Positions 30,801 through 57,217 of a DNA stretch of 64,000 nt are shown piece after piece. The notes under the pieces were generated by a model. It ran no database searches and had not been told where the DNA came from. It saw only the letters and a program-made list of their open reading frames with translations. This stretch comes from Bryopsis sp. KO-2023 (taxonomy: Eukaryota > Chlorophyta > Ulvophyceae > Bryopsidales > Bryopsidaceae). Where the stretch lies: the NCBI GenBank assembly GCA_030272585.1, contig BSYQ01000013.1, forward strand, positions 1,364,001 to 1,428,000, in the 5' to 3' direction. Within the stretch, counting starts at the first letter, position 1; each line of letters starts with the position of its first letter. Position numbers and translations under genes: made by a program.

Positions 30801-33800
30801 CAGCTTTCTGACATTGTGGGTCTGGTGCGCGGAGACTTGAGCAAGCTGAACCGAATGACTTTGAGCGCTCTGGTGGTGATGGACGTCCACGCTCGAGACG
30901 TCGTGGCATCTCTTGCAGAAGAAGGAATCGAGGGGGAGCTCAATCACTTCTCATGGGCTTGCCAACTGCGGAGCTACTGGCAGGTGAACATTGAAACGAG
31001 TGTTTTATGAACTCGAAGCAAACTTTCTGGCAGGGCCACACCTCAATTGTGTTATGCTCATTGAATCAGTGCATGGACCCCGATGAATCGGATGAGCTGT
31101 CCATTCCACTTTGTATGATGAACTCAAGAGTGGAGTATGGATACGAGTATCTTGGGAATTCATCCAGGCTGGTGGTGACCCCACTCACAGATCGTTGTTA
31201 TCGGACACTCATGGGTGCGATCCATCTCAACCTTGGTGGAGCTCCAGAAGGGTAAGAACTGGGATGGAAAGGTCAAAAATCTCAAAACATTCACAAGAGA
31301 AAACAAAAGCACGTTCCAACACACTCATGATTGCTTTTTTTCTCCCCCAGGCCCGCTGGAACGGGAAAGACAGAAACGACGAAGGATCTTGCCAAGGCAT
31401 TGGCGCGTCAGTGCGTCGTGTTCAACTGTTCAGACACTCTGGACTACTTGACAATGGCGAAGTTCTTCAAAGGACTTATCTCTTCTGGAGCCTGGGCTTG
31501 TTTCGATGAGTTCAACAGAATAGATCTTGAGGTTGGACCATCGATGTCTTGGCTGCCTCACTGTGTTTGGAGTTTAGTTCAAGACGTGGACGGTTTTTTC
31601 ACTTTTCATGTTTTGCTTTCTCGCACCAGGTGCTGTCTGTCGTGGCGCAACAAGTCCTCGAGCTACAGCTTGCAGTGAAGAATAAGCTCAAGACAGTCGT
31701 GTTCGAGGGCTCGGAGCTACCAGTGCGACCCAGCTGCAACGCTTTCATCACGATGAATCCTGGGTACGCTGGTCGTTCGGAGCTGCCAGACAACCTTAAG
31801 GCGTTGTTCAGAACTGTGGCGATGATGGTTCCTGACTATGCTCTTATCGCGGAGATCATTCTCTATTCCAACGGATATCTGAAGGTATGATCTCGTGGGA
31901 AGAGCTTCCTTTTGTGCTGCTCGTTGGAGGCTGCAGCAGTCAAAGTGTCTGTGCCGCATTGCAGGCGAGGGACTGCGCTCGGAAAATCGTAGCCACGTAC
32001 AAACTCTGCTCTGAGCAGCTTTCGAGTCAAGATCATTACGACTATGGAATGCGAGCCGTGGTCGCCGTCCTTCGAGCAGCCGGAAACATGAAGAGGAAGT
32101 ACGTCGATGGCGACGAATTTGTCCTGACGCTGCGATCGATCATAGACGTGAACTTGTGCAAGTTCCTTAGCCATGATGTTCCCCTCTTCAACGCCATCGT
32201 TTCTGATCTTTTCCCTGGAGTCGAAATGCCAGAAGCGGACAATAACCAGTTGGTGCAAGCCATGAACAACCAGTGCGCCCTGCACAACTTGCAAGCAACG
32301 GACTATTTTATTATGAAGGTGCGCAGCATGAAAAATACCTCCCAAAAAGAATATATATTTTTTGGGGGACTTCGAGGGATGATAAGCGAGAAGATAAGCT
32401 TTTCACAATTGTGTGGCTGGGTGCAGACGATACAACTCTACGAGATGATCATTGTCCGCCACGGCCTCATGCTTGTCGGCCAGCCGTTCTCTGGCAAGTC
32501 GAGCTCTATCAAGGTGCTGTCGGGAGCTCTGACTGAATTGTGCGAGCAAGGAGTGAAAGGCGTCCTTTTCGACAAGGTCCAAACGCGTATTCTGAACCCC
32601 AAGTCTGTCACAATGGGACAACTATACGGCGAAACAGACAAGGCTACCCAGGAGTGGAAGGATGGGGTATTGGCAGTTACTTTCAGGCAGCTGGCATCAG
32701 ACCCTTCTCCTGACAGGAAACTGTGCGTGCTCGACGGTCCTGTGGATGCCATCTGGATTGAAAACATGAACACTGTTCTGGACGACAACAAGAAGCTCTG
32801 TTTGCCCAACTCTGAGATCATACAGATGTCAGCAACAATGTCAATGATATTTGAAGTCGGGGATTTGGCTGTTGCTTCACCGGCCACAGTCTCCAGGTAC
32901 TTCCAGCGACAGTCCATCAATCGCCATAAGTGCATTTCACGCCCAGTTTGTTTCAATGCGAGTCAATCAACAAGTCGCACTTTTCTTTCGATACAGATGC
33001 GGTATGGTGTACCTGGAGCCTCACCAGCTCGGGTGGAGGCCCTTGCTGACATCGTGGATGAACACACTGCCAGAATCGATTTTGGGACAGAGTCTAGTCG
33101 ATCGAATTGGCCAGCTCTTCGGCTGGCTTCTTCCATGCTGTTTGAGGTTTTTGAGAAAGGAGACCAAAGAAGTTTCTCCAACCGAAGATATTAACGTTGC
33201 ACGAACAGCCATGAACACGATCGTTTCCCTTTTGGATGAGTTCCAGCCGTCAGAGGAGGAGGATGCACCTAAACCAGCCGGTATACTTGCCCCACCCCAA
33301 GATTAATCATAAAAAATGGAGCAAAGCGAACCTGGTGTAACGGACGAGTTCGTCGAGCTGGGCTATCCCACCATCCGCTTTTTCTGACACAGTCTGGACT
33401 GATATTCCTTTTCCTCCTTCCAGGTGCAAATTTCCCCAACGATAAGAAGCTGTTGTGGATAGACAGCATCTTCCTTTTTTCGTTCGTATGGTCAGTTGGA
33501 TGCACCACTGACGATCAAGGCAGAAAGAAATTCAACAATTTTTTCAGAGAACTTGCTGGAGGAAAGCTCATTCCGGGGTATGAAGAAGTAATAGGAGAAC
33601 CCGTTGGATTCTCTTGCCCACTCATGCCTGACACGCAGGAAACCACGGTGTACGACTATGTCTTCAACAAGGAAACGTCGACTTGGCAGCTGTGGACGGA
33701 CACGCTCACCGACATGGATATTCCTGCTGGGGCACAATTTTCTGATATTATTGTGCCGACCAAGGACTCGGCCAGGTAAAAGAAAACGATATTTCAATGT

Positions 33801-36800
33801 TGTTGGCACCTGTTGGCTTGAGTATTTCATTCTCTGCAGCGACGATTTTTTTGTGATGGCCCAGGTACACATATCTCCTTGACCTTGCCATCCAGCATAA
33901 TCAGCCCCTTCTGATGGTGGGACCGACCGGGACAGGAAAGTCGGTGTACATCATGCGGCACCTTGTGGAAGGCCTCGCCAAAGAGTCATGGAGCCCAGTT
34001 TTCATAACTTTCTCCGCCAGAACGTCTGGGAATATGACGCAGGATCAAGTTGATGGCAGACTGGACAAACGCCGTAAGGGAATGTTCGGGCCCCCGGTTG
34101 GTAAAAAGTGCGTGATTTTCGTTGATGATATCAACATGCCAGCCAAGGAGACATACGGCGCACAGCCGCCAATCGAACTGTTGCGTCAGTTCATGGACTA
34201 CTCAGGGTGGTATGGCCGCGACAATACATTCCACCAGCTTGTGGACGTGCAGTTTATCGCCGCAATGGGACCTCCAGGAGGGGGGCGGACATTCATCACG
34301 AACCGATATTTGAGGCACTTTAACACACTCGCTCTTGCACAGGTAATAAGATCTACTTGAAGTCCTAGGGCAATAATGCCCCGACTCCCCTTCCTGTTTC
34401 ATGGGTGAAAGTTTTACTGTTGGACACTCTCGCAGGTGTCAGATGACACCCTGAAAAACATATTCCAGAAGATTCTCGATTGGCATTTGAGCTCCGGTGG
34501 CTTCCCTGACGCCATCAAGAAACTTTCTCTCCTTCTTGTCGACGCCACTTTGGAAATCTACACCCAATCCATGCGCAAGCTTTTGCCAACCCCAGCAAAA
34601 TCGCACTACGTTTTCAACTTGCGTGATTTCGCAAGAGTGATTCAAGGAATGATGATGATGGATGCAAGCGTGTTGCCGAAAGAGCCCAAGGAGGCCACGA
34701 ACATGTACAATAGACTGTGGGTGCATGAAGTCTTAAGAGTATTCTATGACAGACTCGTCGAAAACAAGGACAGGAGCTGCTTGCTTGAGGAGGTAACCCA
34801 TTGGATCTGATGCAACCATTCTCGAGCCTGAGTTCTTTAAGCACAAGATGTTTATTTTTTTTTCACTGCTTTTCAGATCAGAACGACAGTCAAGAATCAC
34901 TTTGGTGGGGATTTCGACGAGCTTATGGGCGGCGTTGCTTCAACGCCAGGAAAATCGATCACTCCAGATGACATGCGAAGCTGCTTTTTCGGAGACTACA
35001 TGGATTCGGAGGCTGAACCACCTGAGAGGAAGTACACTGAAGTGAACACGATCGAAGAGCTCCTGGGCGTCATGGAGCAATACCTCATAGATCACAACGC
35101 GATGAGCAAGCGACCCATGAACCTGGCGATGTTCCTCTTCGCTGTGGAACATGTTTCGAGGATCTGTCGTGTTTTAAAGCAGCCTGGCGGCCATGCTTTG
35201 CTCGTGGGAGTTGGCGGTAGTGGGCGTCAAAGTCTGGCTCGTCTCGCTGCGTTTATATGCGGAATGGAAGTCTTTCAGGTCCGCTTCTTGTATCATTTTC
35301 TCGCTGGGGATAACAGCGAGGGGCTTAGAGGTGTAACGACCTGGAATTGGAATTCGTGTGCAGGTGGAGATATCAAAGAGCTACGGGAAAACAGAATGGA
35401 GAGAAGACTTGAAAAGTATACTGAAGAAAGCTGGCGGAGAGATGCAATCCACGGTTTTCTTGTTCTCCGACACACAGATCAAAGACGAGGCTTTCATGGA
35501 GGACATCAACAACGTATTGAATGCAGGAGAAGTCCCGAACATGTTCCCATCAGATGAGAAAATGCAGGCGAGCACCAATCACACACTTTTTGTTGTTGCT
35601 CCTCTTTGTGAACCTTTCTGAAAAACCTTTATTCGCTCTGACCAGATTTTGGAGCTCGTCCGACCTGAAGCATCTAAGAAAGGGTTGGAAACGACAGTTG
35701 AACTGTGGGGATACTTCGTTTCGATGTGCAAACAAAAGTTGCATGTCGTGCTGTGTATGTCCCCGATTGGTGAAGCTTTTCGTGAAAGACTACGCCAAAA
35801 TCCGTCGATTGTGAACTGTTGCACCATCGACTGGTTCACGAAGTGGCCTGCAGATGCTTTGGAGGCGTTCGCTTACAAATTCCTCAAAGAAATGGATCTA
35901 GATGATAACCTCAGAAAGAGCCTGGTGGCTTGCTGTCAATCCTTCCACCAAAAGGTATTTATCCCTCTTCTCAGAAGTTTGAGGCGCACCAGTCCAAAGT
36001 CAGACCCCACTTGACAGCAATATGGAGGGTGTACGAGTGCGAGTTTTGGAATGATTGTGGCAATAACAGGTTCAAGATATGTCTGAAGAGTACCTCGCAG
36101 ACTTGGGACGGCACAACTATGTCACTCCCACCTCATATCTCGAGCTAATATCAATGTTCCAGACGTTGCTCCAGTCATCCCGAGCAGACAATATGAAGCT
36201 GAAAAATCGGTACCTGGTTGGTCTAGAGAAACTGGACAGCAGTGCACAGCAGGTGTGTGTGGGGGGGTTGTTTTGGAGTCTAAGGCTATCTCACTGTTTG
36301 CGACATCAATAATTTAGAACCTTGAGTGTGTGTCGGACATTTTTATAGGTTGCGGGCATGCAAAAAGAACTCCAAGCGCTCCAACCGCAACTCGTCAAAA
36401 CGGTGGCCGAAGTCGAGGCGCTCATGGTGAAAATTGAAACGGAAAAAAGAGAGGTTGTCGAGCCAAAGGCGGCAATCGTGAAAGTTGATGAAGCGAAAGC
36501 ATCCGAGAAGGCTGCAGAGGCAAAAGCTATCAAGGACGAGTGCGAAGCGGAGCTCGCTGAAGCCATCCCAATTCTGAACGAAGCCTTGTCAGCCCTCGAT
36601 ACAATTAAAGAAGCAGACATCACTTACATCAAGAAGCTGGGTAATCCTCCAGGGGCGATCAAGCTGGTGCTCGAGGCCGTTTGTGTAATTCTGGATGCAA
36701 AACCTGCAAAAATCAAGGATGATTCCGGCAAGACTGTACCTGACTACTGGAAGCCGTCTGTTGGCCTCATGAACGAAAAGGATTTCCTTCAGAAGCTTAA

Positions 36801-39800
36801 AAAATATGACAAAGACAACATTCCACCAAAGATCATAGAAAAAATCCGTTCAGTCTACATTACAAACGAAGCGTTTACCCCAGACAACGCTAAGAAAGCC
36901 TCCCCGGCAGCTGAGGGAATGTGCAAGTGGGTCCATGCTATGTCGTCTTACGACAAGGTCGCAAAAGTGGTGGCTCCGAAAAAGGCGGCTCTCAAAGAAG
37001 CCGAGGGTGCTTTTGAAGAAGTGATGGTTGGGCTGCGGGCAAAGCAAGCCGAGCTCAAGGAACTGATGGATAAGCTCGCGGGAATGGAGGCAGACTTGGA
37101 GATTAACACACAGAAAAAGAACGATCTTGAAGCAGAAGTGGAGCTCTGCTCCGTGAAGTTAGAACGTGCTGAAAAACTCATTGGCGGCCTGGGAGGGGAA
37201 AAGGTTAGGTGGACTGAGACAGCCGAAAGGCTATCAGCCGCATACAGCAACCTGACAGGCGATATGTTGATCTCGGCTGGAATTATTGCGTACTTGGGGG
37301 CATTCACGGCTGCCTACCGTCAAAAGATTGCTCAGCAATTTATTCAACTAGCTGCGGAACGAAGTATTCCTCACAGCCAAAACTTTTCCATGACCAACGT
37401 TCTGGGGGAGCCTGTCAAGATCAGGGAGTGGCAAGTCTCTGGCTTGCCGAACGATACATTTTCGATTGAAAATGGAATAATTGTTGCAAATGGGAGACGC
37501 TGGCCGTTGATGATAGACCCTCAGGGACAGGCGAACAAATGGATTCGAAATCTAGAAAAGACGGCCAATCTTCAGGTCATTAAATTGTCTGAAGGAGGGG
37601 AATACCTCAGGACATTGGAGAACGCAATTCAGTTTGGTTTACCCGTTCTGCTGGAGAACGTGGGAGAGGAGCTGGACCCGTCACTGGAACCATTGCTGCT
37701 GAAACAGGTACATCACAAGCACTCAGTTCAAAACCACAAAACCCACCAAATCCACTGTCAGTAAAACAACAGTTTTTTAAAAGACATCAAGAAACGGAAA
37801 AAGTAGAATGACCAAGTTTGTCTCTGCTTGTGGCCATAGATATTCAAGTCTGGAGGCGTAAACTGCATTCGATTGGGCGACTCCACAATCGAGTATTCGA
37901 GCGACTTCAGATTCTACATCACCACCAAGTATAGAAATCCACATTATTTACCCGAAGTGGCAGTCAAGGTTACCTTGTTAAACTTCATGATAACACCAGC
38001 GGGTCTGAGCGACCAGATGCTTGGAGTGGTGGTTGCCAATGAGCGTCCAGACTTGGAAGAGCAAAGAAACGAGCTGGTCATTCAAAGCGCGACGAATGCA
38101 CGGAAGCTGAAGGAAATCGAGGACAAAATTCTTGAGGTGTTGTCGAACTCGGAAGGCAATATTCTGGAGGACGAGACTGCCATCCAGATTATCACCGAAG
38201 CAAAGATTCTGGGTAACGAAATCGCTGAAAAGCAAAAGCTAGCAGAAGAGACGGAGAAAGCGATCGAGAAGGCGAGGGTTGGATACAAAGCCTGTGGAGA
38301 CTACACGGCGATTCTCTTTTTTTGTATATCCGACCTGGCGAATATCGACCCTATGTACCAGTATTCCCTCACATGGTTCATCAATCTTTTCGTCGCCTCC
38401 CTGCACGCGTCGGAGCCGGCTGAAGACCTGGAGAAACGGCTGGAAAATATCCACAATCACTTCACTTACTCGCTCTACTGCAACGTCTGTCGCTCCTTGT
38501 TCGAGAAGGACAAGCTCCTCTTCGCGTTTCTACTGTGCGCGAGGATTTTAGAAAGCGAAGGTAAAATAGTGCAAGAGGAATGGGTCTTCCTTCTTACCGG
38601 CGGCCTTGGTGATTCGAAACAAGGCAAGAATCCGGCAAGCGACTGGCTCACGGAGAAATCGTGGAAGGAAATATGCAGCTTGGGGAGACTGGGACCTTTC
38701 CAGGGGCTATCCGACCGTTTCGCTTTGGTAAGCTCCCTTGCCTAATTCTATTGTATGGTGGTGCATAGGCATTCTTTTGCTTAAATACAAACTAAATTTG
38801 AGCGGGTTTTTTGCGCTCAGGACCTTGACTATTGGAAAGAGATGTACGATAGTTTGGAGCCGCACAAGGTTCCCTTCCCCTCCCCATTCGATGAACTGGA
38901 TTTGTTTCGAAAACTGCTGATCGTAAGATGTCTCCGACCGGACAAAGTCGTCCTCGGAATCGCGGATTTCGTAGAAGAGAGCCTGGGAAGGAAGTATGTG
39001 GAACCACCTCCCTTCAACTTGAAGTCGTGTTACAGGGACTCCAACCCAACCATGCCTCTCATTTTTGTTCTGTCGCCAGGATCCGACCCGTTTGCCGCGC
39101 TCCTTCAGTTCGCAGGTACCTCTGCTCGAAAGTTCTCTGGAAAATGTCTTCAGTTAAGCATTCAAAAAATGCCATATCACGCAAAAGCTCCTTTATAAAT
39201 GAGAACGTGGTTGGCGTGTGTGATTGCAGCTGAAAATGACATGGAGAGTCGCTTGTTCGCCATTTCGCTGGGGCAAGGTCAAGGGCCCAAAGCGGCTGCA
39301 CTTATCGCTGAGGGAATCACCGCAGGAAACTGGGTGGTGTTGCAAAATTGCCATCTGGCTCCTTCGTGGATGCCTTCTCTGGACAAGATTTGTGAGGACA
39401 TGGACCCCGACTCAGTGAATGCTGAGTTTAGGCTGTGGATGACGAGTTACCCATCTCCAAAGTTCCCTGTGAACATCTTGCAGAATGGTGTTAAGATGAC
39501 GAATGAACCGCCAAAGGTCAGCAACTCACCAACAGGACCAATGTGCAGCAATGTCGCAATTGGATGCTTTGTGATTTTTTGTCAGTTCTCAAGCGATCTT
39601 TATTGGTTTCGGCAGGGTATTAGAGCAAACATGAAACGTTCATACATGCTTGAGCCAGTCGCAAATGATGACTTTTTCGAGGGGTGCCAATACCCTGGTC
39701 CGTTTAAGAGGCTTCTTTTTGGATTGGCGTTCTTTCATGCACTCGTGCAAGAAAGAAGAAAGTTTGGTCCTTTGGGATGGAACATTCCTTACGGTATGCA

Positions 39801-41243
39801 TGCACACTCCACCACTGAAACATTCAACTTGAATATAACGCTTGAAAGATGTATTGAAATGAGTATGACAGACAAAGCCTTTCCCCCCAGTTTCTTAGGA
39901 CCATTTTCAAAAGTGACTTGCTTTACTTGTGGAGCAAGGCCTTTTGTGGTGATTCCTTGAGTGTGTTCTGTTCAGGATTCGACGATGGTGATCAAAGAAT
40001 CAGTGTTCAACAATTGCGGATGTTCCTGGACGAAAACGAGAAGATCCCATTCGATGCTTTGCGATATGTCACGGGGGAATGCAATTATGGCGGTCGTGTA
40101 ACTGATGACAAGGACCGCCTTCTTTTGGTCACGGTGTTGCAGAATTGCTATTGCTCAGGGATTGTCGAGGACCCGAACTACAAGCTATCGTCATCAGGGC
40201 TTTACTTCGCTCCCCAAGAGGGTGACAGACAGACATACGTCGATTACATTCAAACTCTACCTCTGATGCCCCTGCCCGAAGCCTTCGGGCTGCATGCAAA
40301 CGCAGATATTACCAAGGACCTGAACGACACGGCTCTGATGTTCAATTCTCTGCTTTCGTTGGGTGGGTCTGGTGGCGGCGGTGGGGGAGGAGGTGGTGTC
40401 GAGGACAGGGTTGGGAATGCTGTGCAGGAATGCATGGTCAGACTTCCACCGAACTATGACATCGAGATGGTGCAAGCGAGGTATCCTGTGCGATACGACG
40501 AGAGTATGAACACTGTCCTCGTTCAGGAAATGGTGCGTTTCAACAAGCTCTTGGCGGTCATCAAAGACTCCCTGAAGAACATCGATCTTGCGGTTCAAGG
40601 GCTCCTGGTGATGTCGGCGGAGTTGGAGGCGGCGTTCCGCAGCATCTCCGTAAACCAAGTGCCCGAATTGTGGAAAAAGGCGTCATACCCTTCAATGAAA
40701 AGTCTTGGATCATATTTGGAGGATTTATATCGCAGGTTAAAAATGCTTCAAGATTGGTATGAGGATGGCGCTCCGCCTGCCTTCTGGATGTCAGGGTTTT
40801 TCTTCGTGCAATCGTTCCTGACGGCGGGATTGCAGAACTATGCAAGGAAGGAAAAGCTGCCTATTGACATGGTCGAGTATGATTTTGAGATGGTGGGAAT
40901 GGACCATACTGCTCTGAAAGCTCCTAAGGAAGGAGTTTACTTGTACGGGCTATTTTTGGAGGGTTGTGGTTGGGATCAAGGGGAAAAGATATTGTGTGAG
41001 TCCAGTCCAAAGGTGCTTTTTACTCCTGCGCCATGCATGTGGTTGAAACCCAAGTCAGTGGACAAAGGTGTCAAAGGGCAATATTATAATTGTCCAGTTT
41101 ATAGGACAGCTGAGAGAAGAGGGGTGCTGGCCACAACAGGACATTCCACAAATTTTGTCATGTTTATTAGAATGCCAAGTGATGTATTGCCAGATCACTG
41201 GATTATGAGGGGTGTTGCAATGCTCAGTCAGCTCACAGATTAG
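24862..41243 (+). CDS. Axonemal inner-arm dynein heavy chain
   Basis: Microtubule motor of the ciliary axoneme, of the single-headed inner-arm class (DNAH1/3/6/7/12 group). The N-terminal region is recognisable from PVKFFYCNR and [17 protein letters not shown] (25.3-26.0 kb) and the linker follows. AAA1 is at about 31.0-31.9 kb with P-loop [17 protein letters not shown] and [13 protein letters not shown]2 P-loop GQPFSGKSS is at 32478, AAA3 [12 protein letters not shown] at 33920 and AAA4 [13 protein letters not shown] at 35207. The stalk helices flank the microtubule-binding domain (about 36.36-37.25 kb, with [19 protein letters not shown] and [20 protein letters not shown]). AAA5 and AAA6 and the C-terminal domain end in [13 protein letters not shown] run of nine glycines lies at 40375-40403. 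The first exon is 24862-25083; introns are short and poorer in homopolymers than in the neighbours. Not every exon edge was resolved. Confidence 0.93.
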
Positions 41244-41571: not shown

Positions 41572-44266
41572 TCAGCCATTTGTCGTCGCCACGGTAACTT
41601 GGTTGACCCCATCAAAGTTGCGTGCGGCAGCTCCAGACCCATCCCTGTTTGCTGTTGCAACGGCATCCTGCTTAGCCCCATTGTCGTTGCCTGCAACAGC
41701 AGTGGATCCACCGCCATTGGATGTTGCCGCAGAGTTCTGCTTGTAACCCTTGTCATTCCCAGCCACTGCCACAGAACCACCTCCGTTCGATGTGGCACTG
41801 GCACCTTGAAGTGTTCCATCACGATTCTTTGCCTGGGCAGCAGATCCACCGCCGTTGGATGTCGCATCCGCATCTTGCTTGGTTCCACGCTCGTTCTTTG
41901 CCTTGGCGGATGAGCCACCTCCATTGGATGTGGCATCAGCATTCTGGTTCTGCCCGTTAGAGTTCATGGCTGTTGCTCCAGATCCAGCTCCGTTGGAAGT
42001 AGCGTTGGCATCCTGGGCACTGCCGTTAGAGTTCTTTGCGTCAGCTCCGGATCCATCACCGTTCGAGGTTGCGATGGCATCCTGGTCATTTCCATTCTGG
42101 TTCTTGGCAGAAGCACCTGACCCATCTCCGTTCGATGTCGAGGAAGCAAACTGATCAGATCCGTTGGCATTGCTAGACTTAGCTCCTGACTGCGCTCCGT
42201 TGGATTTAGAGACAGCATCTTGAGCAGCTCCGTTGAAGTTCTTTGACGTAGCTCCTGATTGATCACCATTAGACTCAGCGAAAGCGAACTGGTCGAATCC
42301 CCGAACGTTTTCGGTGTTAGCCTGTGATGCCTGTCCATTGGAGACAGAGATCGCATCTTGAGCGGTTCCATCAACATTCTTCGAGTTGGCATTGGATGCT
42401 TGTCCGTTCGACACCGAGACTGCGAACTGGTCATTGCCCCTCACATTGTCGGCATTGGCAGACGATTGGTCCCCGTTGGTCACAGCAATAGCATCCTGAT
42501 CGTTTCCATTAAAGTTATTCGCCGAACCACCGGATTGGAATCCGTTGGTTGTGGTAATGGCAACTTGGTCAGACCCTCCAAAGTTTCCGGTGGAGGCTCC
42601 AGACTGTACTCCATTGGTTGTCGAGATGGCAACCTGGTCAACTCCTCCAAAGTTCTTAGCACCAGCTCCAGATGACTGCGCATTCGTGGTGGCAATAGCG
42701 GTTTGATCAAGCCCACCAAAGTTCTCTGCACCAGCCCCACTGTTCTTCGCATTGGTGGTGGCAAAAGCACTCTGGTCTTTTCCATTAAAGTTCTTTGCCC
42801 CAGCGCCAGAGTTCCTTGCATTGGTGGTGGCGAAAGCATCCTGGTCAGACCCAGAAAAGTTCTCTGCGGTTGCTCCAGATTGTTCAGCATTGGTGGTGCC
42901 GAATGCATTCTGGTCATTTCCATTGAAGTTCTTGGCAGTCGCAGAAGAGTCATCCGCATTGGTGGTGGCAAATGCATCTTGGTCAGAGCCATTGAAGTTG
43001 GCAGCATCTGCAGAGGACCTGTCGCCATTGGTGGTGCCGAACGCAGTCTGGTCCACTCCATTGAAGTTGCCCCCCCTGGCACTGGAGTCATCTCCATTGG
43101 ACTCAGCGATGGCTGTCTGATCAAAACCACTAGCATTCGTCGTGATAGCATCAGACCTATCTCCGTTGGATGTGGAGATAGCATTCTGCTTCGCTCCATT
43201 GAAGTTGGTGGCACCAGCGAAAGAGTTGTCCCCGTTTGATGTGGTCAAGGCAACCTGGTCTGAACCCTTAACATTCAGCGAGCTGGATGTGGAACCTGGT
43301 CCATTGGAAGTGGAGATGGCAGCCTGCTCCACACCATTGAAGTTGGCACTGTTTGCTGAAGAACCCCCTCCATTCGATGTCGAGATAGCATCCTGATCCT
43401 GGCCCTGGCCATTCTGTCCATTGGAAACTGATCCATCTCCATTGGCAGTGGTCACAGTCACTTGACCATCACCTTGTGAGTTCATTGCGTTCGACTGAGA
43501 GCCAGCTCCGTTGGAAGTAGACACGGAATCCTGGTCGTTTCCCTCAGTGTTGAAAGCGTTGGCCTCAGAACCATCTCCATTGGAAGTGGACACGGCAGCC
43601 TGGTCGGTTCCCTTGGTGTTGGTCGCCGCAGACTTGGAGCCGTCACCATTGGCTGTTGCGATGGCCCTCTGGTCCTTGCCTTGTTCATTCACTGCCTTCG
43701 CTTTGGCGCCTGCTCCGTTACTGGTAGCTATTGCCACTTGATCCTGTCCTCCTTTGTTCACGGCCACGGCGCTGGCGCCGGGTCCTTGAGCTACGGCCTT
43801 GGTAAGATTATCCTTGCCGAAATGAGTGACCTGTGCTGTTGTTTTGGTATCTGCAAGCATAACATTCGCACCAGTGAGCACAGATCCGGACCGTAACGCA
43901 GCAAGCTACGCGAGTTGTCCTTATTCCTTGTACCACAACTGAGGAGTCTGATACAACAGGCGTCACCTATGCAAGAACATCCCGAAACCTAACGGCATCC
44001 CCCTGAAACTGTTACGAGTGTACAACAAGTTCGAGTACCGCCTAGGTCTGCAACCCGTCACTGTACTGGAAACGCTCCTACACATATTGCTTGCTCTGCG
44101 CCGCAAGCAGTACAAAGCCCAACAGAAACTCACCGCCTTCCCCACGGATCACGGTAACCTTAATACCGGTAGCCTTTATACCTTTGAGTTCTCGTGCAGT
44201 TGCTGATTGAATTGCCAGGAGGGCCAAAAGTACTCCTGTTGCTACACGCACGAGTGACGACACCAT
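41572..44266 (-). CDS. Secreted 23-residue-repeat protein, predicted beta-solenoid or curli-like
   Basis: Two exons in phase (44266-44134, 43850-41572) give 803 residues. Residues 1-25 are a signal peptide (MVSSLVRVATGVLLALLAIQ, cleavage likely after ATA). After a short linker, 31 tandem units of exactly 23 residues run from residue 82 to 794. A degenerate unit lies before them (59-81) and a nine-residue partial unit after. The pattern is Q-x-A-x-A-x-(T/S)-N-G-x-x-S-x-A-x-A-x-N-x-x-G-x-x. Q1, N8, N18 and G21 are invariant over all full units, and S12 is kept in all but the first. Small residues alternate with polar ones, as in two beta strands per turn. There is no Cys, Trp, Tyr-rich stretch or membrane anchor beyond the signal. 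Curlin repeats (22-23 residues, inward Gln/Asn ladders) are the nearest analogy that I know; ice-binding or silk-like proteins are alternatives. The gene lacks the homopolymer-rich introns of its neighbours. Confidence 0.85.
41575..43809 (-). repeat. Tandem 69-bp coding repeat array
   Basis: The DNA behind the 23-residue units, about 32 copies. Sub-groups are visible: units 12-16 share NSGAGA-type cores with NFNG or NFGG turns, units 19-22 share NGQAS or NGDQS, and units 24-30 share SNGGGS or SNGDGS. This fits local duplication by unequal exchange. Because the unit length is a multiple of three and the codons are GC-balanced, long shadow frames open on both strands. Confidence 0.9.
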
Positions 44267-47172: not shown

Positions 47173-50100
47173 ATGGCGGGGGGAATAACCCCGCGGCTCC
47201 GTTTCTACGCTGCAACGCTCGTGTTGCTTTTTGTCGGAGTCTCAGGGCACGTTCAGCTCTCTTATCCACCCCCCACGTTGAAGTTAGGTCAGTATCCATG
47301 TCCAACCTCCCACTACGGTGACGTTCTAAATGAAAAAACGTGCGCGACGTTGGGCGACGCTCGATTGATTTCCGCCATCGATGCGTCCCTTGGCTTGGGT
47401 TGGGCCACGCTGATTCGAATCACTCCTGCGTTGTAGATTTTCTGGACAACGCCCGAACGAGGGGAATATGCGGGCACACGGCATCAGGCAGCGACCAGTC
47501 CCAGTTCTGGCGACTTCCGGAACCCGAGCTGGATGCCGTCACGACCTTGAAAACCGGCGAAGACGTCACTGTTAGCTGGTGCGTTGCATGCGCCCAAAAC
47601 TCCGTGGAATCGTCCATATCTAAGTACAATCAGCTTCTGGACTCGCTTTTGGCAAGCAATAAACCTGACTGTCGTTCGCTTGCAGGAGCTTGCACTACGC
47701 CCATCAGGGAGGGTTCCGCTTCGAGCTGTACGATTCGGATTTCAGTATCGTGTCCGTGTGGAACGATACGGACCACTGGGGATGTTCGCACGACGGCACG
47801 CAACAGTCGGTCACGCTCCAGCTTCCCAAGAAGGAATGCGAGGGATGCGTGTTGAGGCTGCAGCGTCAAGCTCTGGAATGGGGCGCCAATTACTTGTTCC
47901 ACAGTTGTGCGCTCGTGGATATCGTGAAGGACTCCGAGCTCGACCCTGGGTGCAACGGCTGCTCAGGCCACGGAAGTTGCAAAAAGGTTCGTAGTCATTG
48001 TAGTTACGTGGTGTCGGACCGACATGCAACCCACGTGGTTCGCTTGCAATTCGACCATCCTCAATTTTCTACCCCCGATTTAGAAAAATTACTCTCTTTC
48101 TCTAAAATACTAGACATTTTAGAAAAAGTCTAGTTTTTTCTCTAAGAATAGAAGTCCAGTTTTCAAAAATTATTTTCAAGAAAAAAAAAGGTGCCGCTGT
48201 TTGTGTGTTCTAAGATTCAGAAACTGAACAACTGGTGTTTTGTGAAATTGAACTGGCCAATATCTTTTATTTATTTTTTGGGTTAAAATTTTGGGGTTCT
48301 TTTTGCCATCAGGGAAAATGCGTGTGCGATAACAGCGAAGCAAAAGGCTTCTTCTACGGTCAATACTGTGAAAATCAAAACGAGTGCGATGAGGATCCGC
48401 ACTGTGGAAAATTCGGAAAGTGCATAGACACCAAGGTAAAAATAAAAAATAAAAAAATATAGAGAAGGCAACGAAAAAATCTAATGAAACAAATATTTGG
48501 AAATATGTGTATGAAGTATGTTTTGGAAAATATTCTGTGGAAAGAACAAACTGAATGGAAACATGGTTGGTACATTCAGCGTCGCTTTTTAATCCCTCAA
48601 ACCCTTCCCCCCCCCCAAAAAAAAAACAAAAAAGAACACAAAACAAAAAAAAAGAGAAGAAAAAAAAAGAAAATGTGTGAAAACAAATTAATTCAATTAT
48701 ATTTAATTTGATACATTTGTGGCGATGATATTTCTGATCAAATTTTGAAAGGCAGGGATGCACCAGGAAACACTGAAGCAAATTGTGAAGTGAATAAATA
48801 TTATTTTTTTAGTTATATTTTTTTTTAATATATATATATCTTTTTGATTCTATTTTTCTTAATATCCTTTTTTTTATTTCAAGGAAGGATGCCTGTTCTC
48901 TCTCTCAGAACTTTAAATTAAAAAAAAAACCCTCTGAACAAACAATTTTTTTGTATGGTAATACTGCAGGCGCTTACAGCACCTGCCAAGCAATGTTATT
49001 GCGAAAAAGGATATTTTGGAGAGGAAGTGCTCCTCGGGAAACCAGCAACTCTTCCTACCAGAAAGTGCACCAAGTATGTTTTTTTCACAAAAGAAAATAG
49101 AGTCGGTGAATAGTGCAAAAAATATAGTTTCCTTGGACAATCTTAAGAAGATTTTTTTTCTCTCTTAAGGATCCCTTCCATAATTCAAAACGAAAAAAAA
49201 AAAGTGTTGAGAAGATGATGAAACCCCTTTTGTTAATTAGTGATATTTCATTGAAATTCTTTTTTTTATTATTATTTAAAAAAACAAGAAACGAAGATGT
49301 TTGACATGGGTTAATCAGTGCTCAAAAAATTTGAAATGATTTGTGGATTCGTGGTGTTTGTGTGTGTGTGTTTTCCTGCAATATATTATACATACCATTA
49401 TTAATATTATATTATATGTATATGTTTTTTTTTTTTTTTTTTTTTTTTTGCACGGTTGCTCTACATTGATCTTTGACAAAAACGCTGTTTTTGCATTTTT
49501 TTTGTTAATAAACTCTTTTTCCCTCACTTTTTAGGAAGTCGAAACTTGATCTGGGCGATCCTGAAAAATGGGGGGATGAGTATGACAAGAGTCTCCAAGC
49601 TGGCGACACGATGACAGTCTACTACAAGGTCAGACATCCATTTCAAAACAAAAGGAAAGTGTCTGGGTCTGGTCTTTTCAAATGAAACTGAGATGGGGTT
49701 TGGTCTCATCAAACAGAAACCAAAGGTGTTGATATTTGATTTGTTATTTCGATAGAAACCAAAAGTGTTAATATTTGACTGGTTGAGTAAGAGAAAGTCT
49801 CATCAGTCATGTTGAGCTGATTGCCAGCTGTTTGTGCTGACTAAAGGTGGATGAAGAGGCGGAAGAAATTGAGTTTGCTGTTCGTGCCAAAACCACCGAC
49901 TGGGCTGCGATCGGAATTCGTGGTGCCAGTGTGAAAGGCCAAGAACCCAAAAAGAGCGCTGCAAAAGAAGGGGGTGATGGAGGTAATGAAATTTGTTTTT
50001 GCACTCTTCCTGTCCTTTTGAGCAAGATAATAACAATACAACTGAGCTGAAGCTGTTGCAGCAAAAAAAAAAATGGGGTGGGGTAAAGAAATGGAAAAAG

Positions 50101-53100
50101 AAACCCAAATTGTGAGAGGAAAAAAAGGAAAGGATTCGTTTATAGAGAATTGATGAAGCTCGGGAAAAAGGCCATCTCAACTTGGTTTTTGTTTTTGTTT
50201 TTTTCCTTTCTGACGATGTGGGGCAGTTGTGTTTCAATCTTCTTATTGATAGAATCCTCTTGTTTTTCATTTTTTTTTTAGAACCTGCCCCTGATGCGGA
50301 TGGGGAGCCTGCAGCTGGCGCTGCAACTGAGCCCGCAGCGAACGCTGCAGCAGAGCCTGCAGGAGGAAATCGCCGTCTTCGAGCATATATGCCAGAATTG
50401 GAGGCAGAGGCTGGAGAGTCCCTTTCCCGTTCTCTGTTGCAAAAGGAAAAGAAGGAAGATGCTCCAGGTAGAGGGGCAGCTGTCGATAAATCTTGTTTCC
50501 CCAATTTGTGAAAAAACGCTGATTTCCACCAGGCCACCAGGGTTTTTTTTTGTGCGTTATTATTAAGGTGTTGGTTTGCTCAACCGCAAATGAATTGATT
50601 TTTTTTTCTGGCAATACAAATGGAAAAAAGAAAATTTTTTGGACGCCTAATATATATATATATATCTATATATCCATATATGTAATCTCTCAGAATGCGT
50701 GGAAGAAAAAAGGATCCTTGTATTTGGTTGTGATCTTTTTGTTGTAAGTTCACAGCTGATGGTGAGCCCGTGGAGGATGCCAAGGAAAAAGATGGATACG
50801 AAAAGAAGGAAGGAGAGGCAGATGGCGAACCGGCTGCAGATGGCGAACCGGCTGCAGATGGGGAACCGGCTGCAGATGGCGAACCGGTCGCAGACGGGGA
50901 GCCCGTTGCTGATGGTGAACCTGGTGCAGACGGCGAGCCAGTCGCTGCTGGGGAGGACACTCCAGCGGGCGGTGTCTGCGAGGCTGTAAGTTTTGTGATA
51001 TGATCCCAATTTTTGTTTTTCTCTATCTGCACGAGGTCAATCGAACTGAGGGAAAAAAAGGGGGAAGTAATCATATATACATATATATTTTTTTATTTCT
51101 TGTTTTCTGAATTCTTGTTTTCGCAGCCCCTGCCTGTGGTGGCTTGTGCATCGATTTCCGAACTTGTTTGGGGAAAAAAAAGTCGATTAAAGAGGAAGAC
51201 ATGAAATGAAAAGAGGTAATCGAAACGAGTTTCATCCCTGTTTGATTATGAACTGTTTTGAGCCCTGCATATTTTCTGCCTTTTTTTTGTGATAACAGGG
51301 TGACCCTGTGACGATCGAGTACGATGAGGGAATTCATTTGAAAAAACCCATCCCCACCACATCCACTCTGGGAGGAGGGACCGAGGCAGCTTCTGAATCG
51401 GAGGCGGAGGCTGGAGACGCCCCAGCTGCGGAGCCCAATGCTGCTGCTGATGGAGAACCAGCCACCGCCGATGGAGAGCCAGCCACCGGCGATGGCAACA
51501 GAAGGAAGAGGGCGTTGCTTTCCAGGATGCCTGTCATGGAATCAGAGTTGGCGGAGCCGAGCTACAGGAGAATGGGCAGGGATTTGCGTCAAGACAAGGA
51601 GGCCAAAGCCGATGGGGAACCCGTTGCAAACGACGAGGAAAAAACTGACGCCGGTGAGGAAGCTTCCCATGATTTTCCTCCTTTTTTTTTCAATATATAT
51701 TTTTTTTAACATATTATTTAATATTTCAACCTTTGTTTTATAAATTCCCTTGCCTCTGATGCCTTGGCATCGTTTTTTCTCAACAGAGCCCGGAGCCGAA
51801 CCTGCAGCCGAACCTGCAGCAAGCGACGCGGAGCCAGGCGAGGGAAAGAAAGGAGATTATGCGGAGGATGAGGAAGAGTTCACATACTTTGGGGAAGGCA
51901 CTTGCAAGAATCGATTGGTGGATAACACTGCGGCTCATCCCATGATCAACCAGGATGTGGTGGTTTGGTATGCCAAGAAGGATGCTTTCCGAATCCAGGA
52001 TACTTTCACCCCCAGCAGGGCTCGACCCACTCCGGATTTCTTCTATGGAGGCACAGACGATATCGTCGATGCGGTGAGCGGAAGGCTTTTTTTTTTATTT
52101 TATGATGGGTGGTTGCGACGAGGGTTTCAAGTTTAAAACTTGATTAAAGCAAATGAGAATTGAAATTCTATGCATGAGTGGGTTGTGTGAATTGTTGTTC
52201 AAAAGAGCAGCTTCAAAATGCCATGCATGAGTGGTGTATTGTTTGTTGGAGTGTTTTCTGAGGATATACGTATATGTGTGCATGTATTTTTTTATTTTTA
52301 TTTTTGGACTATTTTGAAAACAAGAAATGAAAATTTCTGGGGTCGATTTCTGTTGAGTTGTTTCGGGGTGGGGTGTTTGTTTTGCAGAATGGGTTTGAAG
52401 CCGACGGCTACACGAACATCAAATTCCGTAAGAAAATGCAAAGCGAGGATCAGCCAGGAGACTATTGCATTCTCAAGGTCGGTTTCTGGCAGTCCTTTTA
52501 TTAAAAAAAATTAGTACATAAATCATTACATATATATTCATTTTAAAACGAATGCATCAAAGCTGTAACTTTACTTTAAAATTTGGGGTGGGAAAAAAAT
52601 ATCAACACTAGATCGATCGATGCTTCTTTTTTTTCCCCTCCGATGTCTTTGTTCATTTTTTTTTTTTTCACCCCAACAGGATGTCAATTACTTGATGATC
52701 TATGCCATTGGCCAAAGCTCCGCTCCTTCCCACTCCCCGGATTCTTCGCTGGAAACCGGTCGATTTTCCAACAAGAAGTTTTACCGCGAGGATGAGCTGA
52801 AATATCACGGAGGTGGCATCGGCACCACTTTCCCCGGAAGGGGCTCTTTCGGTGTCGTAAATTTTTTCGAAGAGGCCCAAGAAGCGGGGAAATGTGCTCC
52901 ATCCTCATTGGAGGTGAGGGGTATATTCCAAACAAATTGTCATTGCAGACCATGATAAAAAGGAAAAGAAATGTCTGAACGTATGCTTTTAATTAGTTGG
53001 ACAACGTGGGGTACTATTGAAGTGGAAAATCGGTTGATTCAAAAAACATGGGCATTGAAAATGGGACGTATTAATATTTTTAGCCCAGAAAAAAGAGAAA

Positions 53101-56100
53101 GCAGATGTGCGTGCAGCCCTGTAACGATGCAAAGTGATCCCCCCCCCCCCCTTCAGATCAATTTGCATGATCTGTGGGTCAGATGCTCTGTCCGCTGTGC
53201 GCTTGTTGAAAAGGGGGTGGCTGGTTTTTGAGAATTTGAGTGTCTTGCAGGATTTCGACTGCCAAGCTGCTGCGATCGGTGGAGCAATCACTTTGCATTG
53301 GAAGACAGACGATGATGGGGTATGTCCAAAAATCCAAACGAAAAAAAACGATTCTGTCCAAAGAATCGCTGAGATTAGCCCTCATTGATGACTGATTGTT
53401 TCTGGTTTCAGGTGTCATTTGCAGCTGTTCATTCTGGGACTGGATGGGTTGCAGTCGGTTTCCCAGAAACCCCTGGACAGATGGTTGGTGCGGACGCCGT
53501 TTTGGGGTGGGCAGAAGGTGATGAAGGAAATGTCGAGGTTTATAAGTTGGAGGCCAAGACTTCGGCAGGCATTGTGGCTGGAAACGATGCTTTCGAAATC
53601 TCGGATGCGGCTGTGGAAGAAACGGACAGCGGGACGATGCTCACCTTCAGGAGGTGAGTCATGGAAAGCAGCGGTGGAACATCAAAAAACCCTGATCGCA
53701 ACATGTTTGGCAAAACGCCCCCCCCCCCCCCTTCCCCCCTCCCAAAAAAAAAAGAAAAGAAAAGAAATTTGCCGCACATTCGATTTTTGATGAGATATTG
53801 CATGCCGACATGTGTCGAAATCCAGCCTCTGGGGTTTTAATTTCAGGATAAGATACTGAACATGAATCTCTATAAAATTTGCTTCTTTCTGTGCAGGGAT
53901 TTCGACGATTCTTTCTCGGCGGAGGCTCCTGTCGATTTGTTGGTCGCTTTCCACGAGTCTGACAAGGAAGGGTTCACTTATCACGGAACCAACAGAGCTC
54001 CTCTGGTGGCGGACCTCGCTGCAGCACCCTCTGACGATGCCATCCCAATCGAGCCCTGTGCTGCCTCCGATTTGGATGTAGGCTCAACCAGTCAACCGAT
54101 GGACCAAAAAGTCTTCCAAATAAATATAAAAATTAAAATTAAATTGATTAATCCTCCAAACCGAAAGCCTTGCGTTGATTTCTTTTCTAAACTCAGCGCC
54201 AAACCGCAGCCCTTGCATTGCTTGCTTTTCTTTTTCTCGCCTTTTATTTTATTGATCAGCAGAAATGTTTGTTATGTTCTCACATTGACTGTTCCGCTGA
54301 ATGGAGAATTGAGATTGAGGATTCTGGTTGGATGCTCATGTGTGTGTGTTTTTTTCTCTCCCCCCCAGGATTTCGATTGTGCAGTGGAGCAGCTGGATGG
54401 AAAAATGATGGTCAACTGGAAAACTGAGGAAGACGGAGTGAGTCACTTTTCTGAAACCTGATATATATTCCCTCGAGCTCAATAAGCATTTACATTCATT
54501 GCTCGAAACTGCATTAATGATTTTGACTGAGAAAATGTATGCACAGCTTGTCCCACACAACCTTTCCAGATGGAGTTGCATCAACAAGCAGCTGCCAACC
54601 GCTCCATTCATTAGTAACTGTTCTGCTTCTGCTTTTCCCAGGTCATGTTTTCGTTGGAGACTGATGCTGCTGGGTATGTCGCGATCGCCTGGCCAGAAAC
54701 ACCTGGTGAGATGATTGGAGCGGATGCTGTGATTGCAGTGCCTGGTGGAGAAGATGGTCCCGACGTCGGTGTCTATAAGTTGAGCACTAAATCCACCGAT
54801 GGCATCATCCCGAGTGATGCCATCGAGATCAGCGATGCTGCGATCGAAGAAAGAGATGGAAAAACATTCGTCACTTTCAAAAGGTGTGCAATCAGAGGAA
54901 AGCAAAGTTTTTTGTTTTTGTTTTTTTTTTGGTGGGGGGGGAGGAAAGCCGCCATCTCCATCTCTGTTTGTTTGTTTCCATCATGAATGAAATGGGGTAT
55001 GCGGTATCCTCCATTTCGCCTACCCACTTTTCCAATATTCTTTTGTCTTTTTTTTTAACTCCCCCGCTTTCCAAAATTATGCCCACAGGATGTTCGACAC
55101 TTCAAACAGCAGAAGAAAGTTGCTTTTCGACGGCCAGGGTGCGACAGACCTCCTGTTCGCCGTCCACGATTCAGAAACCGCCTTCCAAAGACACACCTCC
55201 CGAGACGGTGCCCCAATCGATTTCCAACAGCCACCGCCCCTGGTCAACGAAGCTCTGCCAACGCTGTCCCGAACCGAGATATCATCCGAGGACTTGAGCG
55301 ATGGGGGCTGCATCCCGTCCACTCTGGATGGCTACTCATGCATGCAAACCGCTGGAGCCTTTTCCTTGCATTGGGAAATGGATGAAGAGTCGGTGAGACT
55401 GGCTGCGGAGGCGGAAACTCCTGGTAAGAAATCAAGAGAAATGTGCTGTTACTCAGTCAGACAAGTTGCACTGACTAAGATGAAACTACAGTACTGTACT
55501 GTACTGTCTTCATCTTTTCAAGTTCTGTTTTTTTTGGGGGGGAATCGTTTTCTTAGCTGCTGCCTGATGTGAAACCTGTTCTCAATTTAGGAGTATCATG
55601 TGATTTTTGTTGTAGGATACGTCGGTTTGGGATTCACAGAAACCCCCGACACAATGATCGGCTCCATGTCAGTCATCGGGTGGGCGGACGGAGACACCCC
55701 CGACGCCCAAGTGTACACCCTCGACTCCAAGGACGTTTCCGGGATCACCGTTGCAGCGAATGCCCTGTCTGACATAGAAGACCTCACCGTCGAGGAGTCC
55801 GGCTCCAAGACGATCGTTTCGTTCATACGCTCTTTCGGGGACGATTTCAAGAGGGACGACACCCACAATATGGTGTATGCTTACGGTCCGATGGATGCGT
55901 TGGGTTACCACGGTCCGGACAGCAGGGCCTCGTTGGATGTTAACTTTATGAGCGGGACTTCGGCTGCCAGCACCGGGGAGGATTTGAAGAAGTACTGGGA
56001 TCTGCATGCATGGTTGATGATCATCAGTTGGGGTGCTCTGTTGCCGATCGGAGTGATCGTTGCCCGAACCATGAAGGATCAGGACCCCTTCTGGTTCTAC

Positions 56101-57217
56101 TTCCACATGGCTTGCCAAATCTTGGGTGAGAAAACGTAGAAAATGGAGAGAAAAGTGTGTTTTTTCTTTTTTTTTTTAATGTAGAAAATGGAGGAAAAAG
56201 TGTGTTTTCACGAAGAAACGTGCGTTCTTTTTCTTATTGAAGGAAAACAGAGAAAAAAGGCTGTTTTTTTATTCAAGGGAGGAAAATAGACCATCATCTG
56301 AACCCCCATTCAAGTCGACAGCCTTTCGATATACCACTGCCTGTCCATCGGTTTTCCCACCTTTTCAGAGATTTGTTTGCTTTTTTTGTCAACAGGTTTG
56401 GTGATTGCTATCGTGGGATGGATTGTTGCACTGGCGAAATTCAACCCTCCAGACAATTTCCGCCACGGTAACATCGGGTGGGCTGTCATGATCATGTCGT
56501 TTTTGCAGCCGTTGAACGGGTTCCTGCGACCCAAGCACGGAATGCCTTACAGGTAGGCACCCTTTCTTTCTTTCTGTACATATGTGTGTATACATGTTTG
56601 TTTATTTATATTCGAATTAAACATTCATTTATTCAGAAACATATATTTTTCTATAGTTATGAATGAATGTTTAATTTACATCAGACAAACTTGCTCAATG
56701 AGGGCCATCCACAACGAGGTGATTATATTTTCATTTCTTTACTTCTTTATTTATGTGCACCCTGGAACGCCTCCTTTCACAAATGCCCTTTACGCATCTC
56801 GATCAATAATGCATATGCTAACGTTTGCCACCAAATTTCCATTGAGGGTTCTAGTCACTGACGGTCGATTGATTTTCTCGCAGAGAACAATGGGAATGGG
56901 TGCACTGGACCGTCGGTCGAGTTTGCATCGTGCTTGCCTTGTGGAACATTTTCCTCGGGTTGGACCAATACAACCTTCTGAACATGGTCGGCCAGAAATA
57001 CCACGTGAATTATGGACTCTGGTTGATGTCCCTTTTCATCGTCTATTTGACCATGGAGGCTCGATCTCAAGGAATTAAAGCGGAAAAAGCCAAACGGGAA
57101 ATCGACCAGCGGTTGAAATCTGTGGAAGCTGCCAGCGGAATTTCACGGGCGTCCCAGATGACTCAACCCTCCTATGCAAACGCCACTTCGAGAACTCCGC
57201 TTAGGAAAGAAAATTGA
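47173..57217 (+). CDS. LPMO-like / EGF / four-DOMON / cytochrome b561 fusion protein
   Basis: Twenty-two exons join in phase for 1,521 codons. Exons 1-3 are 47173-47317, 47437-47578 and 47686-47986; exon 4 is 48313-48435; exon 22 is 56884-57217. Residues 1-25 are a signal peptide. Cleavage at VSG|HVQLSYPPP leaves a His first, as in copper LPMOs, with a second candidate His in LHYAHQGGFRFELY (99 or 102) and an LPMO-type end CVLRLQRQALEWG, YLFHSCALVDI (about 26-180). Cys-rich EGF-like modules follow (about 185-270), then DOMON-1 (272-809, interrupted by an acidic insert) and DOMON-2, -3 and -4 (810-1310). Last comes a b561 domain with heme histidines H1319, H1352, H1382 and H1418 and a short charged cytosolic tail. 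DOMON-b561 proteins pass electrons from cytosolic ascorbate across membranes. The LPMO call is from motif order only; an X325/BIM1-like copper-binding domain is the main alternative. Confidence 0.9.
47248..47950 (+). other. LPMO-like N-terminal domain (exons 1-3)
   Basis: The mature protein should begin with the His codon at 47248. Readable landmarks are HVQLSYPPP, then DFLDNARTRGICG, GEDVTVSW just before a splice junction, and HYAHQGGFRFELYDSD. Paired cysteines lie in WGCSHDG and KECEGCVLRL, and Tyr/Phe stands near the axial copper position in NYLFHSCALVDI. The order (His1, a loop with CG, a strand, H-x-GG-F, C-x-LR, then CA-x-VDI) is that of LPMO families such as AA15. I cannot assign a CAZy family. 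Confidence 0.65.
48313..49073 (+). other. EGF-like modules (exons 4-5, with the end of exon 3)
   Basis: Starting in exon 3 with GCNGCSGHGSCKK, the chain continues GKCVCDNSEAKGFFYGQYC, NECDEDPHCGKFGKCID and KQCYCEKGYFGEE. The Cys spacing and the GxFxG and GxYC turns are EGF-like, giving about two modules, the last lacking a typical end. They would act as a rigid spacer or binding element between the copper domain and the DOMON row. Confidence 0.75.
49535..52913 (+). other. DOMON-1 split by an Ala/Asp/Gly/Glu/Pro-rich insert (exons 6-13)
   Basis: The fold starts with GDTMTVYYKVDEEAEEIEFA and DWAAIGIRG, is broken by roughly 290 low-complexity residues (exons 8-11) and resumes at VVWYAKKDAFRIQDTF, FFYGGTDDIVDA, GYTNIKFRKK and YLMIYAIGQSS. 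The usual heme Met motif (M-x-G-A-D) is missing, though a His is present in LKYHGGG. It may be a ligand-binding rather than heme-binding DOMON. Confidence 0.75.
50810..50950 (+). repeat. Tandem ADGEPA coding repeats
   Basis: Seven or eight near-identical 18-bp units encoding A-D-G-E-P-A/V in exon 9. Looser copies of the same theme occur in exons 8, 10 and 11. Confidence 0.9.
53251..56125 (+). other. DOMON-2, -3 and -4 in series (exons 14-20)
   Basis: Each begins with a hydrophobic strand (ITLHWKTDDDG, MMVNWKTEEDG, FSLHWEMDEES) and has the G-x-V-x-(I/V/L)-(G/A) strand and a Met in the heme position (GQMVGADAV, GEMIGADAV, DTMIGSMSV). Each also carries a later His candidate (TYHGTNRA, QRHTSRDGA, GYHGPDSRA). 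All three could therefore bind heme b with Met/His ligands as AIR12 and cellobiose dehydrogenase cytochromes do. Exon structure repeats too: exons 14 and 17 are both 69 nt, and exons 15 and 18 both 242 nt, pointing to exon-set duplication. Confidence 0.85.
56003..57020 (+). other. Cytochrome b561 transmembrane domain
   Basis: Helices run through DLHAWLMIISWGALLPIGV, FWFYFHMACQIL, LVIAIVGWIVALA, HGNIGWAVMIMSFLQPLNG, VHWTVGRVCIVLALWNIF and NYGLWLMSLFIVYLT. Four histidines at spacings of 33, 30 and 36 residues match the two-heme b561 core. The intervening G-x-x-Q and P-L-N-G phrases are those of DOMON-linked b561 domains. Confidence 0.9.

Follow-up and report, generated by a model that had tools for sequence, protein, structure and literature searches.

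To our knowledge, the reductant of lytic polysaccharide monooxygenases (LPMOs) outside fungi is an open question, and a gene of the coenocytic green alga Bryopsis sp. KO-2023 raises it in concrete form: does a single polypeptide join an LPMO-like copper domain to its own membrane electron supply? The gene lies within a stretch of 64,000 nucleotides of contig BSYQ01000013.1 (positions 1,364,001 to 1,428,000; hereafter the window), and comparison of the predicted protein with its paralogues and homologues strongly supports a real fusion of LPMO-like, EGF, DOMON and cytochrome b561 parts. We see an even chance that the product sits in the plasma membrane and itself drives the copper oxygenase that it would carry at the surface.

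A sequence-only reading of the window had proposed 22 exons joined in phase, and this is borne out: the exons are present and join in a single frame with GT-AG borders at every intron, the splicing of the window copy being predicted (Table 1). The length of 1,521 codons given in that reading is corrected here to 1,512 codons including the stop, the spliced 22-exon translation comprising 1,511 residues. A Pfam scan of the whole product yielded DOMON (PF03351) with 181.2 bits against a cut-off of 32.7 and an E value of 1.1e-53, and b561 (PF03188) with 39.2 bits against a cut-off of 23 and an E value of 1e-9. The product can be aligned with its paralogue P0001 (relatives returned by the searches carry P numbers) from the signal peptide to the C-terminus, except for a linker and one DOMON. 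These E values and the near full-length alignment argue that the observation is not due to chance. At the N-terminal end, HVQLSYPPPTLKLDFLDN of the window protein matches HIQLSYPPPITVLDFLDN of P0001 without a gap, which supports the junction between exons 1 and 2.

The Bryopsis genome that was searched comprises 91 Mb in 28 contigs. Three loci share the domain order: the window gene on C13, the gene for P0001 on C3 and, at the exon level, C1:7442851-7448465, where the one flagged internal stop that was examined sits at an intron border. P0001 is the NCBI entry 'hypothetical protein BSKO_04133 [Bryopsis sp. KO-2023]'; a 7-exon chain on C3 reproduces it exactly, and the spliced gene contains no stop. 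In the C3 gene, exon 3 by itself covers EGF as well as the latter half of the LPMO-like domain, exon 4 crosses from the end of EGF into DOMON1, and in the last exon DOMON runs on into b561. The window gene and the C3 gene agree in the positions and phases of their first two introns. A genome-wide search with the NCBIfam model SCE4755 (NF043005) gave weak matches only at the same three loci (E 0.007 to 0.25). The Pfam LPMO_10 profile (PF03067) had no match at E up to 1 in a six-frame search of the whole genome; our guess is that the domain is missed because it is split over exons. A separate 642-residue open frame (L056, C1:1561428-1562987) has DOMON and b561 matches with no SCE4755 match near it, and is apparently a plain CYBDOM gene.

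Beyond this genome, the full domain order recurs in P0002, although its b561 stretch, at 15.3 bits, falls below the cut-off of 23. In P0035, a 278-codon open reading frame from a contig of 915 bases, the histidine, the LPMO and EGF parts and the start of DOMON1 follow one another without a break. P0006, labelled Tetstr1 and read as Tetraselmis striata, combines LPMO and EGF, and in P0021, which lacks His89, the LPMO part appears by eye to continue into EGF-like sequence. P0004 carries EGF-like and DOMON parts with a weak b561 stretch (18.6 bits); it was excluded from the full-order count together with P0003 because the two gene models look merged. The model of P0004 starts with a glutamyl-tRNA reductase and that of P0003 ends with TMC, and both are probably mergers. 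A domain-profile search gave 30 matches among 2,225 candidates, with nematode proteins (Ostertagia P0018, Strongylus P0019, Plectus P0032) and metagenome proteins among the matches, and the searches that allowed longer proteins gave 4 among 175 and 2 among 294. From the 36 returned proteins, the window domain and the C1 domain, 15 domain sequences (alignment A5) and 26 (alignment A6) were picked by hand; the proteins left outside are mostly fragments. Scans of viral and genome contig collections with a few short peptides, and hence of limited reach, found no relative. The SCE4755 model implies that bacterial relatives exist. The paralogues and homologues strongly support the original view that the chain is no product of neighbouring genes run together, and the order proposed for it, from the LPMO-like head through the DOMON row to b561, is likewise supported.

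Sequence comparison also upholds the relationship of the N-terminal domain to LPMOs; its brace residues are conserved and form a putative copper site. The best family match is SCE4755 (44.1 bits, E 2e-11, domain residues 18-138), which falls short of the curated cut-off of 75, so that the domain is related to this family and is not a member of it. The same model matches all but one of the 15 A5 sequences. LPMO_10 scores 22.5 bits with the window domain and 17.2 bits with the whole protein, under its cut-off of 23, compared with 22.4 bits for the P0001 domain, 17.3 bits for the P0002 domain and 27.2 bits, over the cut-off, for P0013. The nearest solved LPMO belongs to AA15 by profile, and AA15 is tied with AA10 by fold. 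A PDB sequence search with the domain alone returned only a designed FN3 fusion (E 0.094). Between the window protein and P0001, the proportion of non-synonymous differences in the domain (pN) is 0.27 against a saturated synonymous value (pS) of 0.84, which indicates strong constraint. Membership in BIM1/X325 (PF20238, cut-off 27) was rejected, since no match was listed for the window domain in a scan to E 10 whose filters drop most matches above 0.1.

The histidine brace proposed earlier stands in part. At the sequence level, a histidine directly follows the hydrophobic leader in the window protein and in 14 relatives whose match reaches the profile start; these relatives were chosen for matches starting at profile position 1 (P0003 and P0004 lack that start), and the count is partly circular because that position is itself a histidine. 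The second brace residues named in the sequence-only reading, H99/H102, were taken as His89/His92 of the present model, a shift of 10. The His92 column is invariant (15 of 15 rows of A5) and falls on His91 of the AA15 enzyme TdAA15A, a brace histidine according to the available text of its description (PMC5823890). His89, however, is not conserved, with histidine in 8 of the 15 rows, and was rejected as a brace ligand.

The EGF-like units exceed their cut-offs in a scan of the fragment (EGF_integrin 27.3 bits, cut-off 27; EGF_Teneurin 25.0, cut-off 24.3; EGF_2 23.4, cut-off 22.1), and all fall below cut-off when the whole protein is scanned. Pfam gives five DOMON stretches, the first two of which (residues 285-317, profile 3-37, and residues 647-732, profile 41-124) are separated by 329 residues of acidic sequence rich in Ala, Glu, Gly and Pro. 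Because the two cover complementary parts of one profile, they are halves of one DOMON; four DOMONs are counted and a count of five was rejected. The methionine and histidine columns are invariant in 9 of 9 aligned DOMONs (four from the window protein, three from P0001, two from P0002), the DOMON1 rows being heavily gapped. Such a Met/His pair coordinates heme b in this kind of DOMON, as the available texts on two Arabidopsis proteins describe (PMC10784544, PMC10784552). By eye, basic spots of the type RRxL...MPxLxxE are kept in the DOMON1 insert of the window gene, P0001-P0003 and P0036; they may be processing sites that would release the copper head from the membrane part.

In the b561 domain, His1309, His1342, His1372 and His1408 are all kept in P0001, and the row of DOMON heme ligands followed by a b561 module is supported as first described. 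The window protein has the features of a CYBDOM, namely one chain in which both DOMON and b561 exceed their cut-offs, the Met/His pairs and the four histidines. A PDB sequence search with DOMON4-b561 returned nothing at E up to 1. The Arabidopsis DOMON-b561 proteins HYP1 and CRR draw on ascorbate for the electrons with which they reduce external Fe(III) (PMC10784544, PMC10784552); in the available texts, HYP1 reduces ferric chelates and also Cu(II) (PMC10784544), and CRR is a ferric reductase (PMC10784552). They resemble the window protein in having a signal peptide, DOMON with Met/His and b561 with four histidines, whereas they contain one DOMON and b561 in place of four DOMONs, EGF units and an LPMO-like head. 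By analogy with both, and from the signal peptide, the DOMONs would lie outside and the C-terminus in the cytosol. Up to six hemes would then line up with one copper, if all sites are filled.

Table 1 Coordinates of the Bryopsis gene and its parts, numbered from the first base of the window.
Feature	Position	Strand	Remarks
Whole gene	47173..57217	+	22 exons, every intron GT-AG, one frame; aligned with P0001
Exons 1-8	47173-47287, 47437-47578, 47686-47986, 48313-48435, 48970-49073, 49535-49628, 49847-49982, 50282-50467	+	
Exons 9-16	50756-50985, 51299-51653, 51787-52073, 52388-52477, 52680-52913, 53251-53319, 53412-53653, 53897-54077	+	
Exons 17-22	54369-54437, 54642-54883, 55089-55423, 55616-56125, 56396-56552, 56884-57217	+	
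Signal peptide, residues 1-25	47173..47247	+	Predicted; putative cleavage before His26
LPMO-like domain, residues 26-168, exons 1-3	47248..47932	+	
His26, expected N-terminal brace histidine	47248..47250	+	Directly after predicted leader
His92, expected second brace histidine	47702..47704	+	Aligns with His91 of TdAA15A (5MSZ)
Phe157, candidate axial residue	47897..47899	+	Opposite Tyr184 of TdAA15A; weakly aligned stretch, -3.6 bits
Two EGF-like units, residues 175-261	47951..49071	+	Fragment scan over cut-offs
DOMON1 first half, residues 262-322	49072..49933	+	Profile positions 3-37, 23.1 bits
Acidic insert within DOMON1, residues 323-629	49934..51887	+	13 DGEP repeats; disordered-looking by composition
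DOMON1 second half, residues 630-790, Met648/His764	51888..52886	+	Profile 41-124, 51.0 bits
DOMON2, residues 793-945, Met846/His932	52893..54023	+	43.9 bits
DOMON3, residues 959-1116, Met1010/His1102	54063..55236	+	41.5 bits; mostly opposite gap in P0001
DOMON4, residues 1141-1292, Met1192/His1277	55309..55956	+	46.8 bits
b561 membrane domain, residues 1303-1460	55987..57061	+	PF03188, 44.5 bits (fragment), cut-off 23

Fungal cellobiose dehydrogenase carries a DOMON-fold heme module that serves a separate LPMO, and dopamine beta-hydroxylase is a copper monooxygenase fed via cytochrome b561; in contrast to what is proposed for the window protein, neither unites donor and oxygenase in one membrane chain with b561. 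The TdAA15A chain (Thermobia, 5MSZ) has 195 residues, compared with about 143 in the window domain, and the partners given for AA15 domains in the available text are CBM, GH18 and GH19 (PMC5823890), in contrast to EGF, DOMON and b561 here. In that text of 2018, 'Domon' occurs as an author name only (PMC5823890). The SCE4755 model is 146 positions long, and its members are presumably small proteins that lack the EGF, DOMON and b561 parts. In Voshol et al. 2019, sequences with DOMON/EGF and LPMO_10 stand at the base of that paper's LPMO tree (PMC6950343), and these are possibly of the same family as the window protein; the available text gives them a single sentence and an outlook, in which b561, species and mechanism do not appear (PMC6950343). 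The search of openly licensed literature turned up no account of DOMON and b561 combined with an LPMO-like domain. The parts are all of known kinds, and their combination appears undescribed in the literature searched.

The analysis shows the gene structure, the conserved domain order, the relationship to LPMOs and the conserved brace and heme-ligand residues; we infer how the protein lies in the membrane, that it is loaded with heme and copper, the path of its electrons, its activity as an oxygenase and its substrate. By analogy with HYP1 and CRR, b561 would pass electrons outward: cytosolic ascorbate would reduce the inner b561 heme and electrons would move on to the outer heme, from there along the four DOMONs, through their Met/His hemes, and finally to the histidine-brace copper of the LPMO-like head, which would lie outermost. 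Together with the EGF units, the long acidic insert would serve as stalk and tether, so that the copper head could reach the wall and stay wired to the cell. The wall polysaccharides of Bryopsis are xylans/glucans or mannans. With O2 or H2O2, the reduced copper may oxidise these polysaccharides of the alga's own wall in growth, wound repair or wall renewal.

A rather unlikely alternative is a metal reductase or uptake protein, in which DOMON-b561 reduces Fe(III) or Cu(II) and a BIM1/X325-like head captures or passes on copper with no polysaccharide oxidation. X325 and BIM1 are copper proteins, the activities of HYP1 and CRR described above are of this kind, and the fragment relative P0012 has a weak BIM1-like match (14.2 bits, E 0.061, cut-off 27). 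However, the window domain has no BIM1 match in the filtered scan to E 10 and yet matches LPMO_10 and SCE4755, and the genome contains the plain DOMON-b561 frame on C1; a reductase would therefore not need the extra head. The oxygenase is favoured because of the LPMO relationship, the missing BIM1 match and that separate frame. An N-terminal domain reduced to a non-catalytic carbohydrate-binding remnant, positioning an ordinary DOMON-b561 reductase in the wall, is improbable, given that His26 and His92 are kept in the informative rows and the domain is strongly constrained. We regard as quite improbable a surface peroxide source, in which the heme-fed copper head would mainly turn O2 into H2O2 and cleave little polysaccharide, the peroxide serving wound response or wall cross-linking: uncoupled LPMOs produce H2O2 and the wiring of the chain would permit O2 reduction, but no specific sequence feature points to it, and electrons could leak to O2 from DOMON-b561 by itself as well. 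That an LPMO-like gene and an adjoining DOMON-b561 gene were artificially joined is highly improbable, for although the 22-exon model was built from splice borders with no transcript seen, and although, to judge from P0003 and P0004, genes of this sort do get merged in annotations, the domain order is common to three loci and P0002, exons 3 and 4 of the C3 gene each cross a domain border, and the reading frame of P0035 is unbroken from LPMO into DOMON1. It does count against the fusion that the protein-relative searches returned no deposited protein identical to the window copy.

Elsewhere in the window, open frames at 20897-22598 (plus strand) resemble by eye what we take to be translation initiation factor eIF2A, and long open frames at 26825-41243 (plus strand) are suggestive of an axonemal dynein heavy chain, again judged by eye. 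On the minus strand, a stop-to-stop open reading frame of 777 residues (41572-43905) consists largely of a 23-residue repeat with a 69-base unit, ...SNGDGSxAxAxNxNGxDQxAxATSNG.... Pfam gave it no match up to E 1; possibly it encodes a repetitive or beta-solenoid protein that is secreted.

With slightly less than an even chance, the window protein would represent the first hard-wired LPMO, in which cytosolic ascorbate feeds b561, up to four DOMON hemes and the chain's own copper; the family, with its three loci in this genome, would be a green-algal one. An LPMO-like head and a known ascorbate-driven channel in one chain make LPMO reduction testable in a single protein, and suggest a design for an LPMO that works without added reductant. 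If the proposal is true, a giant alga consisting of one cell could keep the cutting of its own wall under cytosolic control, and the cell, rather than a diffusible reductant, would decide when the wall is cut.

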